Source of the DNA: Methanolobus psychrotolerans
GTDB taxonomy: Archaea; Halobacteriota; Methanosarcinia; Methanosarcinales; Methanosarcinaceae
Direction: 5' to 3'
DNA length: 64,000 nt
Assembly (NCBI RefSeq): GCF_002243045.1
Contig: NZ_MBKP01000006.1
Location: 1-64,000 of the forward strand
Shown: positions 12,025 to 21,433 of the stretch, piece after piece
Numbering within the stretch: position 1 is the stretch's first letter
How the letters are laid out: each line of letters opens with the position of its first letter
Position numbers and translations under genes: made by a program
The notes under the pieces: model-generated
What the model was told of the DNA's origin: nothing
What the model saw: the letters and a program-made list of their open reading frames with translations, nothing else
Database searches by the model: none

Positions 12025-15000
12025 TCAAACCACAGTCACATTCATTCCCTTCACCTCAGCCACAACCTCCGGGTTATAGTATGAGTAAGCCTTGCTCTCT
12101 GAAACAATAGCCTTCACCGGGAACAGCGCCTTAACCTGCATACTGAGATTCAGTTCCTCACCCGGCTGCATGTCATCGATATAGAGAATAACTTTTCTGC
12201 CAGCTATTTCGTAGCGGGTTATCAGGGATTCATCCTTGAGAGCTTCAAGACTTGAAGATACCGGACTGAAACCTGTCGGAACCGCAAGGTCCACTATCAT
12301 CATGCCACTGGAAGTTGTGCTGCCATCAATGCCACGGATGCCGTTGTACTTCACATGGGCATTCACGGTTACAATGTCGTTCACGGCTACATCAGTAGAA
12401 TCATATTCCACGTCAAGCTCGATCTCATTCTGCTCGGTGACTTCAGGCAGTATCACATTGAAACGCCTGAGGAGCTGATAGTTCAGGTCTCCTGTGCCAT
12501 CCATTTTTAGCTTCACATTCGATGTTCCGGCAGGGATCTCAATTATCTGCACCACATCGAAATTCTGCTGGTTCACTTTCACTGATCTTATCTCAGTGTC
12601 GTCTGCAATCACATGTACCGTAGCATCAATATCCCTTCCTGCTGATGCTGCTGCACTCATCAGTGCCCTGAAAGCCATGACAGTATCCTGTGTACTGGAA
12701 AATCCTCCGTTGGCATTACGCTGTGCTGAGATCCATTTCAGTGAAGAGATGGCAGTGGGGTTCTTTGCCTCGATCAGGGCAAGGGTCGCATATGCTGTTG
12801 TTTCCACGTTCTTGCTTGAGGGAACGATGAACCCATAACCACCGTAATCGTATGGCAATTCAACATTTCCGCCGCCATAGCCCCAGTAAGTGCCGGCATC
12901 ATCCTGTTTTGCAATTGCCAGCAGGTCATTCAGAGCCTCATCAGCAAATGGGCTGTTGAGTTTCTGAAGGACCAGAGTTCCGATTGCCAGAGCATAGGGG
13001 TCATCCTGGCTGGCAAGGTTGTCCTCAAGGTACTTCTGTGCATTTGCAATGACAACAGGGCTTGCAGAACCATATTCATGCAGTGCAAGGGTCACATATG
13101 CCGTCATGGCATAGGTTCCGCTTACACCACCCATCATGTCCTGGTGTATCACAAAACCGACCTGTTCCCATGAACCATCTTCCTGCTGATGGGACTCTAT
13201 CCAGTCTGCCGCCTCTGAGAGAATATTCTCATCGATGGTTGTCACATCCCTTGCACCACTGAACTGGGATAGTACGAAAGAGGTCAGCCAGAGACTTCCC
13301 TGGGCATCGCTCTCACCGAAGGCCGAGAAGGAGCCATCATTATGGCGGTAAGTCAATTGGCGTTGGTAGCCCGTAATGATAAACATCTCAGCCTTTGCCC
13401 TCACCTCCGGGTTATCCTGTCCGGTTGCCTTCAGGTAGCGCAATACTTCCACGTCAGTGGAGAAAAGCATCATGTTCTGCTCACCGCATCCGTAAGGCAT
13501 ACCCAGCAGGTCATCCACCCCGCTTATGCTCTGTGCAACAATGCTTGGAGTAAAGCTCACAAGCACTTTTTCAGAATCAGGAACTATGCCCTCCGGCAAG
13601 GTTGTGTCCAGTTCCACAGAACCGTTGCTGAGCACCCCGTTATCTACAATCTCACGGGTTGCACCTTCTGCCTCAACGATCATATCCTTCCTGACTGCAT
13701 CAGCTCTTTTTGTAGTCTGTCCCATGATCTCGATAACCTGCTTTCCAACCTCGGTTGGACTTATCGTGAAACTGGTATATCCCACACCATTACCATCCAC
13801 AGTTACGGTCTGCACATCATCACCAATGATATCGAACCAGTCAGCACCCGATAGTGTGAGTTTAACGTCCTGCTCTGTATCAAGATAATTGTATACCTGC
13901 ACCTGAACAGGGAATGTCTCCCCCCTTGTAACGGAATATGGCAGGTCCGGATCAACGAAGAAATCCTGGAAAACTGTCAGACGGGATTCTGAGATGCCAA
14001 TACCCTCCGGTCCGGAAGAAACAGCATGTAACCTCCATGTGGTTATGCTGTCCGGTGCTGTCAGGTCAAGACTTGCAAGACCTGCATCATCAGTGAGTAG
14101 TTCAGGCATCCAGATCCATGTCTCAGGGAAGAACTGGCGTACACGCTGTACCTCTGCAAGCTCCCCGCCTTCGTCACCACTGGAGGCTGTGGTTTCCTCT
14201 GTAGGTATCGCTTCATCCATGGCAGGCATCTCTGCAACCATTTCCTCCTCCACTACAAAGTCCATACCATCCACATCTGCGAAAAAACCTGCAAAATTAT
14301 TCACTTCAAATTCCGCCTTATTCGGTGATTGTGGAACTTCAATAGCAGGTGAAGCCATCACTACCATACCGGCATTTTGCAGCACATCATAGGCACCTTC
14401 CACGTACCATGAAGGATGTGACTCTGCCATTGGCTCCATGAAGCGCTTTTCCAGCTCACTGAAGACCTGCATGAGATTGAGTCTGCCCTCACTTAGTGCA
14501 TAAACGGACTCATCTACTATGGAAAAACCTATCATGGACCTGCTTCCTGCATCAAAATCAACTGTAACATTGTCCCCGGGCTCCACTGAATCACTGTCAA
14601 AGGAACTGGAAAGATCAACCTGTGTTGAGAATTCCACATCAAATGGAAGCACATCCGCAGACACCTCGCTGTTAGGGTTTATCATGTATGCCACTACTTT
14701 TGCCTGCGGGCTCATCTGTGGCGTCACAGGTATGCTTATGTCACTTTCATCACTGGTAGCTGAATATACGGTCCTGCCATTTGCGAACACATCATAGAAC
14801 ACAGTTCCCGGATTTGTGGAGTAGACACGGAAGGAGATCGTGTCCCCTACTTGCGGCACTCCCTCGCTTGTCTGGGAGATATGTATGAAACTGGCACTGG
14901 GCGAGTAGGCTGCATTCAGGGACACACTGGTCCATGCATCATTTCCACTGGCATCGATGAAAAGGTGGTTACTGTCTTCTGGCATCTCGTATTCAAGCAT

Positions 15001-16248
15001 TGCAATACCATCCGTGGTAGTTACCGTTTCCTTGTCCTCAGTAATCTCGTAGGACTCATTCCTTATGCGAGTTTCCACGGTCACTTCAGCATCCACAGGA
15101 TTGCCTCCGGGGTCCTTTGTTACCAGAAGCACCTGCAATGGCATTCCCGGTTTAATCGTATTGGACTCTGGAATAAGCTGGATTACAAGAGGAGACTCGG
15201 AAATTGTGAGCAATTTGTTAGTGGTCTCACTGTGGTTGCCGGTGTCTGTGACAGTCACGTCAAGCATGAGACTTGCCTGACCGCCTGCCCCATATGTTCC
15301 TGCTGCATATTCTACGGCAGGGAGTTCAAACTCAATTGAACCGTCCTCCAGCGTCCCGGAGAAGGTTGCGTATTGCTCCCATTCACCCACATAGCGCGAG
15401 GCTTCCACAAGCACATCTCCTTCAACCTCCTTGCCAAAGAAGTAGTTGACTGAAACCGTACCTGTTATCTCATCAGAGACAAGGAACCATTCCTGTGGTG
15501 TTTCCAGTGAAACGTCGAACTTCGGGAGCACATATTTGTCCACCTGGATATCAACATTGGAGGAAGAATCACCTGCTGTTGCGATTATCTTCCATGTGCC
15601 CAGATTCAGTTCGGATGCAAGTGGCAGGTCAAAGGAAGCAACACCGTATTCGTTGGAGTTTAGTTCTTCCTTGAAGACCTTGATGCCTTTGGCATCTGTG
15701 ATCTCAATGGTAATGTTCTCCTGAACAGGTACAAGATTGTTGTTCAGAGAGAGAATTCTTCCATGTATCGTCTGCCCCGGTTTGTAGATCGGCTTGTCGG
15801 TCTCAATGAACAGTGGATTGCTCCTTACCACTTCCACAGTTGCCTTGAATTCTGTGTCAAAACCCGAAGGCTTCGCGGTCAGCACATAGCTACCCTCTTC
15901 AACATCAGGAACTTCAAAGGAAGCCACAACATTCCCTAAATCAGAGGTTGATGCCCGGACAAGTGTAATTTCATTATTGCCCTCATCAGTTAGTGTATAT
16001 TCCACACACCGGGTCACCGGCTGGTTGTCAGAGAAAGCCGCCATTGTCACTGAACTTTCCCCACCTGCGAAAAGCATCTTCGGTGCAAGTATCAGGAACT
16101 CATCCCCTGAAGAGGACACCTGGCCGCTGCACGGACCGGCTATGTTGGATGATAGTTTATTATCATTCCCGATACATCCTGAAATTAAAACTGCAAACAA
16201 CGATACTATTACTATGAAAGAACCTGCTTTTTTCCCTATTAATTTCAC
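12025..16248 (-). CDS. Alpha-2-macroglobulin-like thioester lipoprotein
   Basis: A 1407-residue secreted protein. It starts at a GTG behind GGAGTGG, has a short signal peptide and a lipobox (VLISGC, Cys near residue 25), so it should be lipid-anchored outside the cell. Successive macroglobulin-type beta domains fill residues 50-650, including FIETDKPIYKPGQTIHGR, a hallmark MG-domain segment. An acidic Met/Glu/Ser-rich stretch around 690-735 replaces the bait region and precedes RVRQFFPETWIW. The thioester is intact: GMPYGCGEQNMM with Cys921, followed by an alpha/alpha thioester domain and a C-terminal receptor-like domain. In bacteria such proteins trap proteases at the cell surface; the same role is an inference here. 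No penicillin-binding protein 1C partner is present. Confidence 0.9.
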   Translation of the reverse strand: MKLIGKKAGSFIVIVSLFAVLISGCIGNDNKLSSNIAGPCSGQVSSSGDEFLILAPKMLFAGGESSVTMAAFSDNQPVTRCVEYTLTDEGNNEITLVRASTSDLGNVVASFEVPDVEEGSYVLTAKPSGFDTEFKATVEVVRSNPLFIETDKPIYKPGQTIHGRILSLNNNLVPVQENITIEITDAKGIKVFKEELNSNEYGVASFDLPLASELNLGTWKIIATAGDSSSNVDIQVDKYVLPKFDVSLETPQEWFLVSDEITGTVSVNYFFGKEVEGDVLVEASRYVGEWEQYATFSGTLEDGSIEFELPAVEYAAGTYGAGGQASLMLDVTVTDTGNHSETTNKLLTISESPLVIQLIPESNTIKPGMPLQVLLVTKDPGGNPVDAEVTVETRIRNESYEITEDKETVTTTDGIAMLEYEMPEDSNHLFIDASGNDAWTSVSLNAAYSPSASFIHISQTSEGVPQVGDTISFRVYSTNPGTVFYDVFANGRTVYSATSDESDISIPVTPQMSPQAKVVAYMINPNSEVSADVLPFDVEFSTQVDLSSSFDSDSVEPGDNVTVDFDAGSRSMIGFSIVDESVYALSEGRLNLMQVFSELEKRFMEPMAESHPSWYVEGAYDVLQNAGMVVMASPAIEVPQSPNKAEFEVNNFAGFFADVDGMDFVVEEEMVAEMPAMDEAIPTEETTASSGDEGGELAEVQRVRQFFPETWIWMPELLTDDAGLASLDLTAPDSITTWRLHAVSSGPEGIGISESRLTVFQDFFVDPDLPYSVTRGETFPVQVQVYNYLDTEQDVKLTLSGADWFDIIGDDVQTVTVDGNGVGYTSFTISPTEVGKQVIEIMGQTTKRADAVRKDMIVEAEGATREIVDNGVLSNGSVELDTTLPEGIVPDSEKVLVSFTPSIVAQSISGVDDLLGMPYGCGEQNMMLFSTDVEVLRYLKATGQDNPEVRAKAEMFIITGYQRQLTYRHNDGSFSAFGESDAQGSLWLTSFVLSQFSGARDVTTIDENILSEAADWIESHQQEDGSWEQVGFVIHQDMMGGVSGTYAMTAYVTLALHEYGSASPVVIANAQKYLEDNLASQDDPYALAIGTLVLQKLNSPFADEALNDLLAIAKQDDAGTYWGYGGGNVELPYDYGGYGFIVPSSKNVETTAYATLALIEAKNPTAISSLKWISAQRNANGGFSSTQDTVMAFRALMSAAASAGRDIDATVHVIADDTEIRSVKVNQQNFDVVQIIEIPAGTSNVKLKMDGTGDLNYQLLRRFNVILPEVTEQNEIELDVEYDSTDVAVNDIVTVNAHVKYNGIRGIDGSTTSSGMMIVDLAVPTGFSPVSSSLEALKDESLITRYEIAGRKVILYIDDMQPGEELNLSMQVKALFPVKAIVSESKAYSYYNPEVVAEVKGMNVTVV

Positions 16249-18864: not shown

Positions 18865-19955
18865 TTAACTATAGCTAATATACGGAGATGATGTCGTACT
18901 CAAGGTCTTAGAATTAAGTATATCCTTTCTGAATACGCCTGAAGTACTGACATCTAATATTTTATAATTACCGGTACTGTGTTGGTTCCCACTGGCTGTA
19001 CTTCCGGGATTTACAACCGACGTAGAAGTCTTAGCAACATTACTATTGCATGTCATTTTCCATTTTGCTATGTCAGTACTTGTGCTACTATAACAGATAG
19101 TAGATACATCTGGTTGAGAGTAGGTCCAAGATAGTGATGCAGACACACCACCTGACCCACCTGAAAGTGAAAAACCATTTGAATATTCGCCTGAGATAGA
19201 CGAAGATGGCTTAAACTTAAATAATTGTTCATTTCCTAAATTCCCACTACTCCACTTTTGATAAGCATACCACAAATCATTTTTCCACAATGATATAGGA
19301 TAAGCACAACAACCAGGCTCTAAACCTGATTCTTGGAGAATTGCAAACCAATCTAAGGTACTACTACCATCATTCATGAGGACATATAATTCATAGTTAT
19401 TCATTACCCCCCCATATGGTGATTTGTAGTAATCATCATAGAAGTAGCATGGTTGACTCCATTCAGTTCCACTTTTAGAAGAGATTAAACCATCAATTGC
19501 TTGATTTGTAGTGCCTATAGATTCCTTTTTTTCAAAGGATAATACTTCGGCATTACACCATTCTTTGGCCCTCTCATGAATATTTGAGACCGATTCATTG
19601 TCCCCTGCAATTCCTACATATTGACTTGTTGTTCCATCATCATTAATCTTGAAGCAGTAAGCTATAATTTCTCACCTTCTGGGACTTCAGGTACTGAATA
19701 GATTATAGGGACCTCTGAAATTCCCTTTTCTTTTTTATACTCACTTACTACTTGTTCTCTGATAGTATCTAAATCTTTTAGTGAAAGTGGATTGGAAAAA
19801 TCCTCCGATATGCTTGCATATTTTATATCCCCATATGATTTAACAACACAATCGTTCAGTTCCGTGGTTTCAGAACTGGTAGCTGTTGCTGGCAACATAC
19901 TCACGGCCAGAAGAACAGCTAACACCAGACTATATAAAATAGTATTCTTCTTCAT
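18865..19955 (-). pseudogene. Secreted protein with Gly/Ser-rich C-terminal domain, frameshifted
   Basis: Two open frames join into one secreted protein. The first, from ATG 19955, has a clear signal peptide (MKKNTILYSLVLAVLLAVSM, cleavage after ATA) and runs to IYSVPEVPEGEKL, stopping at 19662. The second is open from 19671 to the stop at 18865 and begins EIIAYCFKINDDGTTSQYVG. No start codon with a ribosome site opens the second frame before 19404. The split lies in a short GAGAAATTATAG stretch where one base change of length restores continuity. The C-terminal half is rich in Ser, Thr, Gly and Tyr (SGGSGGVSASLSWTYSQPDV) and contains several Cys. The family is not recognised. It is transcribed divergently from 20254. 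Confidence 0.65.
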
Positions 19956-20049
19956 TATTTTACCTATTATTAGTTCTTTACTCCAAAGACAAGTCAACAT
20001 AAGTTTTAAACCAAATCAAAGCCAACATCATCTATGTCTTCGGGCAGTT

Positions 20050-20209
20050 CAGGGTTTAACTCTTTTCTCACAAGTCTACAGTTGAACCCTGTAAATTCTC
20101 ATACGTTATAAGTATAAATCTGTTATGTGCAAATCATCGAAATGATGGCCAGTCCCAACTTTACATATCAAAACAGGTTTAACCCTAACTCATTTCGATG
20201 ATTTGCACA
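20050..20209. promoter_or_regulatory. Nested inverted repeats between divergent secreted-protein genes
   Basis: Two inverted-repeat pairs fill the 298-bp divergent intergenic region. Outer-left pair: CAGGGTTTAAC at 20050-20060 and GTTGAACCCTG at 20081-20091 (one mismatch). Right pair: the 20-mer TGTGCAAATCATCGAAATGA at 20126-20145 and its perfect reverse complement at 20190-20209, 44 bp apart; between them lies CAGGTTTAACCCTAAC, which echoes the first motif. The downstream operon includes a DNA-binding regulator, so these are candidate operators; a small mobile-element scar is the alternative. Confidence 0.65.
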
Positions 20210-20253
20210 GAAAAGTTATATCCTAATAAAATTATTTGTAGCCCGGTGATTTG

Positions 20254-20688
20254 GTGAAGTTCTGGAAAACTATCTCGTTGGTTTTGGTTTTGGCTTTATT
20301 GTCGGTCTCTGCAGTCTCTGCAAAAGAAGAATATACTGTCTGTCCTTCTACTGAAGAGAACCAGTCCGTTTCAGTCAAAGTGTACAGCACAATAACACAG
20401 GGACAGACGAAAACATATACATCGAATGTCGGAACCGGGGTTCAGCGGCTGGAAGTAGATCTCAATTGGGGTGATTCCAGTGATTCACTGTCGGTTGCGA
20501 TATACACACCCAGTGGGACATATGTCGGGAAATTCTATGAAAGTGCCGATGGAAATATTGATGGCAGAGTTCATCTTGATATAGTGCCGGGTCAGGGTTA
20601 TGTGCAATCTGGAAAGTGGAAATTCAATATACGTGGGGAATCAGTTGCTGGTACGGAGAACTATAACTTCAATACATACTCTCACTAA
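20254..20688 (+). CDS. Secreted beta-sandwich (PPC-like) protein
   Basis: 144-residue exported protein starting at GTG 20254 (GGTG five bases upstream; a TTG at 20251 is less well placed). After a signal peptide (about residues 1-23, ending VSAK) the mature part looks like a pre-peptidase C-terminal-type jelly roll: GQTKTYTSNVGTGVQRLEVDL, LSVAIYTPSGTYVGKF and SGKWKFNIRGESVAGTENY. No transmembrane segment follows. Its 3' end overlaps the next gene, whose product is a membrane regulator, so the secreted protein may be a signal or ligand for that regulator (inference). Confidence 0.7.
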   Translation: MKFWKTISLVLVLALLSVSAVSAKEEYTVCPSTEENQSVSVKVYSTITQGQTKTYTSNVGTGVQRLEVDLNWGDSSDSLSVAIYTPSGTYVGKFYESADGNIDGRVHLDIVPGQGYVQSGKWKFNIRGESVAGTENYNFNTYSH

Positions 20689-21433
20689 AGCAGGAATTTT
20701 ATTCCTTCTTTTTATTTTCATATTGTATACGCCTGTTGTAGTGGCTACTGAATACTATGTAACACCATGTCAGTATGATGAGCCAGGTGTATCTGTAGCA
20801 GGAGAACATGTTCAGGAAATAGATGTTGTTGAAATACCTTACTGGATGTTTTTGCTATTCCTAAGTGTAGCCCAAGTGAGTTCAATTCCTGAATTTCTGC
20901 TTCTAATTAAATTCGTGAAATTTGTTCCTGCCCTTGGAAGCATTAAAAGAATAAACAAATCAAATATGATGAAAAATTCATGTAGGGAAAATGTATTTAA
21001 TACAATCAAATCTATGCCAGGCATATCTTTTAGCGAAATTGAGAGAGAGATCGACATCAATCGAGGCACTCTGAGATATCATATTAATATTATGGAAAAG
21101 GAAAAGTTAATAGAATCCCATAAAACCAAAGGAAAGGTCAGTTTCTTCAGAAACGACTCCACGTATAGTGAAAGGGAAAAAACACTGATATCCACATTCA
21201 AAAACGACATCAATTACAAAATTATTTCTGAAATATCGAAGTGCCATTCTCTTAACAACAATTCTCTTGCCGATAAGTTAGGAGTTACTGCTTCCACTGC
21301 AAGCTGGCATGTAAAAAATATCAAAGAATTTGGAATTATTGAAGTAAACAAAGAAGGAAAAAATAATGTTTACACCATTAATCCTGAATATCATAACATA
21401 ATAGAAGACGCTTCATATAAATGTGAACCATAA
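20645..21433 (+). CDS. Membrane-anchored transcriptional regulator with two winged-helix domains
   Basis: One-component regulator. From the TTG at 20645 (GGGGA just upstream) the protein has a first hydrophobic segment (AGILFLLFIFILYTPVVVAT), a short extracytoplasmic loop YYVTPCQYDEPGVSVAGEHV, and a second helix (IPYWMFLLFLSVAQV). The cytoplasmic part carries two winged-helix modules: NVFNTIKSMPGISFSEIEREI...GTLRYHINIMEKEKLIE and ISEISKCHSLNNNSLADKLG...STASWHVKNIKEFGIIEV. The frame is open to 20600, deep inside the upstream gene, so translation is coupled by overlap. The layout fits known methanogen membrane-bound regulators; the target is unknown but the inverted repeats upstream are candidates. 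Confidence 0.75.
   Translation: MLVRRTITSIHTLTKAGILFLLFIFILYTPVVVATEYYVTPCQYDEPGVSVAGEHVQEIDVVEIPYWMFLLFLSVAQVSSIPEFLLLIKFVKFVPALGSIKRINKSNMMKNSCRENVFNTIKSMPGISFSEIEREIDINRGTLRYHINIMEKEKLIESHKTKGKVSFFRNDSTYSEREKTLISTFKNDINYKIISEISKCHSLNNNSLADKLGVTASTASWHVKNIKEFGIIEVNKEGKNNVYTINPEYHNIIEDASYKCEP

Follow-up and report, generated by a model that had tools for sequence, protein, structure and literature searches.

We find that a region between two secreted-protein genes of Methanolobus psychrotolerans, lying within the 64,000-nucleotide stretch of DNA analysed here (the window), holds what reads as the Methanolobus version of the sRNA162 locus of M. mazei, with the orientation of the operon reversed. 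Few regulatory RNAs of archaea have targets that have been tested, and sRNA162 is one of them. The interpretation we prefer, and regard as fairly probable, is that of an sRNA162-type locus in which divergent promoters each carry a box, a membrane regulator would act on the boxes and an antisense RNA would act on the leader of the neighbouring gene. The initial annotation had described the region as a self-contained surface-sensing module composed of a secreted protein, a membrane regulator and its operators; it did not foresee an antisense RNA, homology with the sRNA162 locus or a dispersed leader.

In M. mazei, sRNA162 is a 191-nt RNA with stem-loops SL1-SL3 and a 39-nt linker (Jager et al. 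2012, PMC3510493). It is flanked by MM2442 on one side and the operon MM2440-MM2441 on the other; over its first 65 nt it overlaps the 5' leader of MM2442 and binds to it, and the linker binds at the start of MM2441. That paper gives homologues only for M. acetivorans and M. barkeri and leaves the role of MM2442 open. According to PMC11456600, the M. mazei RNA has RNA-seq coverage without ribosome footprints. As in the sRNA162 and sRNA171 loci of M. mazei, the window contains a cargo gene, a predicted antisense RNA and a unit of a secreted protein and an ArsR-type regulator; the 5' part of the RNA is antisense to the cargo leader, the family model has three stem-loops, and the two operon genes overlap, by 37 nt in M. 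mazei (where MM2441 starts that far before the stop codon of its partner; PMC3510493, section 19) and by 41 nt in the window, measured from the predicted regulator start to the partner stop codon. The window differs in that its operon points away from the cargo gene and runs in the same direction as the RNA; the M. mazei-like operon converges on the RNA. Its cargo gene also encodes a different protein, pairing of the linker with the regulator is unsupported, and the score of the RNA lies under the Rfam cut-off. Two sRNA162-type copies about 5 kb apart are found in the M. mazei-like genome G097 (locus L069).

Table 1. Features of the sRNA162-type locus, by position in the window
Feature	Position	Strand	Remarks
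Left (cargo) gene, C-terminal part, other frame	18865..19404	-	66.7% to L158 ORF residues 190-366
Left (cargo) gene, N-terminal part with signal peptide	19662..19955	-	40.8% to L158 ORF residues 2-99
Left gene leader element	19954..20107	-	Hairpin, stem GAAGACA/TGTCTTT around antisense promoter, ribosome-binding site
Predicted TATA box of antisense RNA, TTTTAAA	20004..20010	+	TTTAAA conserved in homologous loci
sRNA162-like antisense RNA, predicted, 183 nt	20036..20218	+	RF02792; 5' end placed after the M. mazei homologue
GGGTTTAAC inverted pair	20050..20091	+	SL2 of antisense RNA; read on the - strand, the hairpin with which the left gene's leader starts
Predicted TATA box of left gene	20112..20119	-	Placed from the positions of box and leader at homologous loci
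Upstream box copy 1, left arm of 20-bp repeat	20122..20143	-	Adjoins left gene TATA box
Upstream box copy 2, right arm	20192..20213	+	Adjoins TATA box of right-hand operon
Predicted TATA box of right-hand operon, TTATAT	20217..20222	+	TATA element after box
Small secreted protein, MM2440-like partner	20251..20688	+	145 aa, TTG start; homologue identities
MM2441-like membrane regulator, two winged helices	20645..21433	+	262 aa, predicted TTG start within partner gene

The genes flanking the region are homologues of MM2440 and MM2441. Identity of the partner is 67.6% to L079 (Methanolobus), 61.4% to L080 (same genus) and 45% to the M. mazei-like L069, and that of the regulator is 57% to L079 and 41% to L069. 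Domain matches of the regulator are HTH_24, HTH_HVO_0163_N and ArsR-type, and like the HVO_0163-type and ArsR-like regulators (PF24266, PF01022, PF13412) it has two winged-helix domains; it differs from them in its two hydrophobic segments and short outer loop, which precede the winged helices in our reading of the sequence, and in the co-encoded secreted partner. The two hydrophobic segments are probably membrane-spanning. We note that the stretches after the hydrophobic segments are alike in the partner and in the predicted outer loop of the regulator (EEYTVCPS and TEYYVTPC, at 20251-20400 and 20645-20860); the Y, V and P of the regulator stretch are invariant in six aligned regulators, similar stretches occur in partners at distant loci, and the shared stretch may mark an interaction between the two proteins. 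The left gene is split by a frame change into an N-terminal part of 97 aa and a C-terminal part of 179 aa, as compared to one 367-aa ORF at L158, and this interruption (18865-19955, minus strand) appears to be a frameshift, a pseudogene or a base error. Elsewhere in the window (12025-16248, minus strand) lies a lipoprotein-like ORF of 1407 aa with a CGEQ motif, which we take to be reminiscent of the alpha-2-macroglobulin thioester motif.

The leader of the left gene was followed with two models, R1, built from 22 leaders with the window included, and R2, built from 14 Methanosarcina leaders without Methanolobus. R1 scores the window leader at 97.2 bits, the window being part of that model. R2 matches it at 19951-20107 (minus strand; 53.2 bits, E 3.6e-9), and it is to this leader of the exported-protein gene that the 5' part of the window RNA, from its putative transcription start, is antisense. 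Further R2 matches lie at Methanolobus loci besides the window, at two loci of Methanoperedens and at one of Methanogenium. The R1 leader is present in 68 of 111 genomes of the family (10 of 14 genera) and, at the level of the order, in 97 of 185 (17 of 27 genera), with at least 28 matches in the top genome and six in the genome of the window; 107 of the 112 R1 matches were analysed, the five weakest (E 1.7e-5 to 9.9e-4) being left out. Rfam at E<=1e-3 gave no match in five loci with leader copies, so those copies lie outside Rfam coverage, and a literature search of titles and abstract openings, with most subscription papers outside its scope, found no description of the leader family. Rates over the 62 loci that were chosen for a prior leader, regulator or RF02792 match are not genome-wide, since those loci were preselected by earlier matches.

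The same gene set is present at L079, L080 and L009, the last in another family of the order and with a doubtful cargo gene, and at these three loci as in the window the operon is divergent from the leader, with a common promoter region; the closest locus to the window is that of G015 (L007/L079), in the same genus. The check for the gene pair in relatives that had been proposed thus found it at L079, L080, L009 and the M. mazei-like L069. A protein scan with the sequence of the window regulator by itself gave no relative; a scan with an alignment did. Of the 107 leader matches, 36 have an MM2441-like regulator no more than 3 kb away, and the annotated arrangement of a secreted protein and a membrane-bound two-winged-helix regulator opposite a divergent secreted protein indeed recurs, at the 19 of the 107 where the regulator is divergent. 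The proposal that the module is self-contained did not survive, because the leader is dispersed across genomes and 71 of its 107 matches have no regulator within 3 kb.

Behind the leader, an ORF of at least 40 aa starts near the end of the element in 97 of 107 matches. A hydrophobic N-terminus was scored in 94 of these 97, as compared to 278 of 497 background ORFs of at least 150 aa, by a crude secretion score that is biased because the choice of start codon rewarded a hydrophobic N-terminus. The 89 cargo ORFs of at least 60 aa fall into 35 groups by similarity of the mature part, and among the 85 that were scanned (the family scans left out four short ORFs, L140:2310, L080:4921, L163:2587 and L156:2557) there are 11 with Reprolysin_5 (M12 metalloprotease), six with Peptidase_C39_2 and, at E<=1e-3, two with TIGR04449 (halocin C8) and one with TIGR04450. 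Some cargo genes after the same leader encode domains of halocin C8-like archaeocins, whereas the cargo protein of the window itself is not halocin-C8-like; the M. mazei-like cis target (L069, 8100-8876) has a Cys-rich end and no match to the halocin models.

Several of the leader copies merit separate mention. In the genome of the window, a second copy (L082, contig C21, 2966-3747; 124 bits) stands before a gene for a secreted protein with a Cys-rich C-terminus and a weak halocin C8 match (E 0.078); the antisense RNA there seems to lack SL3 and to end at a T-rich stretch, and close by is a thioredoxin/DsbD-like gene. L126 and L127, in 33 kb of G098, are tandem arrays of leaders with a different secreted protein after each copy, and resemble a cassette array open to recombination via the shared leader. 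Outside the Methanosarcinales, Methanogenium sp. MK-MG carries a leader match of 57.7 bits near an MM2441-like regulator (L206, 1482-1632), for which transfer or a deeper origin are both possible.

The inverted repeats to which the initial annotation had drawn attention are real. A perfect 20-bp inverted repeat (20126-20145 and 20190-20209) has its arms 44 bp apart and is the one perfect 20-bp inverted pair with arms up to 100 bp apart in the 64-kb window, as compared to about 9e-6 expected for independent bases. The second pair, here the GGGTTTAAC pair, consists of CAGGGTTTAACT at 20050-20061 and AGTTGAACCCTG at 20080-20091 (18 nt spacing, 92% complementary), and the third related copy, GGTTTAACCC, is at 20176-20185, inside the interval between the 20-bp arms. 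The genome searches proposed for both were run. Allowing up to 3 mismatches, the two window arms are the sole sites of the 20-mer in the 3.16-Mb genome (106 contigs), with no matches to the reversed 20-mer used as a control, and for the GGGTTTAAC type the GGGTTNAAC/GTTNAACCC pair has one further occurrence (C20:1929-1976).

The two pairs are different things. As we read it, the 20-bp pair is a 22-bp box present twice in inverted orientation (the consensus is AGTTTGATGATTTGGCCAGAAA, the variant in the window ATTTCGATGATTTGCACANAAN), with one copy for each predicted divergent promoter and each by a putative TATA box, and as a candidate it looks like two operators. Enough clean upstream sequence was available for 101 of the 107 matches, and the better half of these regions served to train a weight matrix for the box. 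At a score of at least 8 the box is found near the leader promoter in 56 of the 101, as compared to 1 reversed, 0 shuffled and 0 far-upstream controls; of the 18 divergent loci, 6 fall short of this threshold on the leader side, and five of these 6 are from Methanolobus. Where the regulator is divergent, an inverted second copy, which was outside the training, is present at 15 of 18 loci; the figures are 10 of 12 where the regulator is tandem and 25 of 71 where none is near, and a same-strand second copy is present at 0 of 101. Beyond the second copy a TATA-like element is found in 38 of 39 pairs (in A+T-rich DNA and with no control), and an ORF starts outward of it at 11 of 11 divergent, 0 of 9 tandem and 5 of 19 other loci. 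The spacing of the pairs is 69-72 bp in 16 of 39 and 79-83 bp in 15 of 39, with 70 bp in the window; that the 71- and 82-bp classes are about one helical turn apart is only suggestive, since the Rayleigh value over all 39 pairs peaks at 12.5 bp and the pairs are not independent. The copies differ at a mean of 3.9 of 22 positions within a locus versus 7.0 between loci, with relatedness not removed, and both the spacing and the mismatch counts are weakened by the non-independence of related sequences. With up to 3 mismatches the box pattern has 7 matches in the window genome versus 2 for the reversed control, three of the 7 being at leader copies, namely the two arms in the window and C77:3619-3640, and 34 versus 5 in the M. 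mazei-like genome G097. The box is also present in 32 of the 71 leader copies without a near regulator, and so another protein may bind it. At Methanosarcina loci, for instance L069, an outward box and TATA element are kept downstream of sRNA162, where the operon is reversed and there is no outward ORF; these are either a relict or another promoter.

It might be argued that all of this is RNA, i.e., that both repeats are only SL2 and SL3 of the sRNA162-like RNA, the 20-bp arms, which coincide with SL3, being no DNA operators. In a permissive Rfam scan of 19700-20600 the predicted RNA matches RF02792 over the whole model (1-190) at 41.5 bits (E 7.4e-6), short of the gathering score of 78 bits; its fold has an energy of -52.1 kcal/mol and a z of -5.6, with SL2 and SL3 in the minimum-energy structure and SL1 absent there, its pairs (GUC/GGC) being able to form. 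Across 21 aligned RNAs (the window and 20 homologues) two-sided changes occur in 13 of the 30 predicted pairs of SL1-SL3, the alifold energy is -27.2 on the sRNA strand versus -23.2 on the opposite strand, and over all 30 pairs there are 69 G-U versus 15 A-C combinations. SL3 of the M. mazei RNA was moreover confirmed as an RNA structure by probing, as described in section 17 of PMC3510493, and the 20-bp arms may therefore serve in the RNA too. However, the 69:15 excess is carried largely by SL1, SL2 and the outermost columns of SL3. At 60 loci with arms like those of the 20-bp repeat, wobbles are about equally frequent on the sRNA strand (85) and on the leader strand (95), so the RNA signature is absent there, and the 20 other aligned rows, read in the register of the window's 20-bp repeat, have 16 G-U and 25 A-C. 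The box occurs, too, singly or paired at spacings of 32 to 176 bp, with the TATA-like elements after it on both sides (again with no control). We consequently judge the RNA-only account unlikely.

The converse account, that both pairs are operators of the membrane regulator within one self-contained module, is the one with which the region was initially annotated. The recurring divergent arrangement and the operator-like behaviour of the 20-bp pair favour it, and for that pair, with a box copy by each TATA element, the operator reading fits. The GGGTTTAAC pair, by contrast, lies inside the predicted transcribed 5' leader of the left gene, which means that the repeats do not all occupy a plain intergenic spacer, and it recurs in the dispersed leader copies, most of which have no regulator nearby. 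Read on the leader strand, two-sided changes occur in 6 of 14 pairs over 22 leaders, and the window leader folds with a z of -2.6. Over 112 model-aligned copies, in an alignment fitted to the leader structure and biased that way, the nine pairs of SL2 have 46 RNA-strand versus 26 leader-strand wobbles, and the second leader stem, around the antisense promoter, has 30 leader-strand G-U versus 3 A-C. Because of this conservation and covariation of the leader, we disfavour the operator reading of the GGGTTTAAC pair, which seems better explained as an RNA hairpin, and consider the two-operator module quite improbable. Still less credible is a mobile-element scar or MITE-like insertion, which a 40-bp inverted repeat of 85% identity and short spacing, also detected at the locus, might bring to mind by its resemblance to terminal repeats: the 20-mer pair has no further copies in the genome, the 124-bp block is single copy, and the homologous region lies between the same genes in other genomes. 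With no repeated copies and conserved neighbours, we reject the scar.

Returning to the sRNA162-type locus as we prefer to read it, the analysis shows the homology, the order of the genes, the conservation of leader, hairpins and box, and the wobble counts; that the RNA is transcribed in Methanolobus, that DNA is bound, that a signal is sensed and in which direction expression is changed are what we infer, and the promoters and 3' end of the RNA are predicted. The RF02792 match over the whole model and the two-sided changes in SL1-SL3 count for this reading as well, and the score below the Rfam gathering threshold counts against it. There would be two divergent promoters, one for the exported-protein gene on the left and the other for the secreted partner and the membrane-anchored winged-helix regulator, each with one 22-bp box just upstream of its TATA element, and it is the inverted copies of this box that would form the 20-bp repeat. 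The cytoplasmic winged helices of the regulator would bind the box, and this binding might tie the left gene, and the operon that encodes the regulator, to an outside signal, via the regulator or the secreted partner. The antisense RNA would have a third promoter, within the left gene's leader and with its putative TATA box about 26-32 nt upstream of the RNA 5' end; the first ~55 nt of this RNA (stem-loops 1-2, which hold the GGGTTTAAC pair) show complementarity to the leader, and it presumably dampens expression of the left gene. Pairing of the linker with the regulator start found no support in the window, a partial run of complementarity seen by eye not being significant against shuffles: in a permissive test with accessibility not counted, the pairing energy was -14.4 kcal/mol and 82% of 300 shuffles were equally good, as compared to -28.1 kcal/mol and 6% for the M. 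mazei-like control locus. Within the genus of the window, 0 of 27 genomes reach the RF02792 cut-off; a search at E<=10 gave weak matches in unrelated control genomes as well, and its first pass missed the window.

More tentatively, and with somewhat less than even confidence, we speculate that across the Methanosarcinales a dispersed, multi-copy cassette of box, promoter and structured leader with antisense RNA runs exchangeable exported enzymes and antimicrobial-like peptides, that membrane-anchored winged-helix regulators with secreted partners sense the outside and act on the boxes, and that the conserved 5' domains of the antisense RNAs let the copies cross-talk, sRNA162 being one special member and MM2442 the precursor of an exported Cys-rich peptide. 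If this is true, the cargo set of the cassette would include halocin-C8-like peptides, M12 metalloproteases and C39-like peptidases. A single stretch of DNA may hold an operator pair and an RNA stem together, and wobble counts can help to separate the two. The family, with its shared promoter box and membrane regulators, represents a testable regulon for the MM2441-type regulators, and our findings suggest that the sRNA162 RNA system governs secretion and competition, beyond the choice of methyltransferase.
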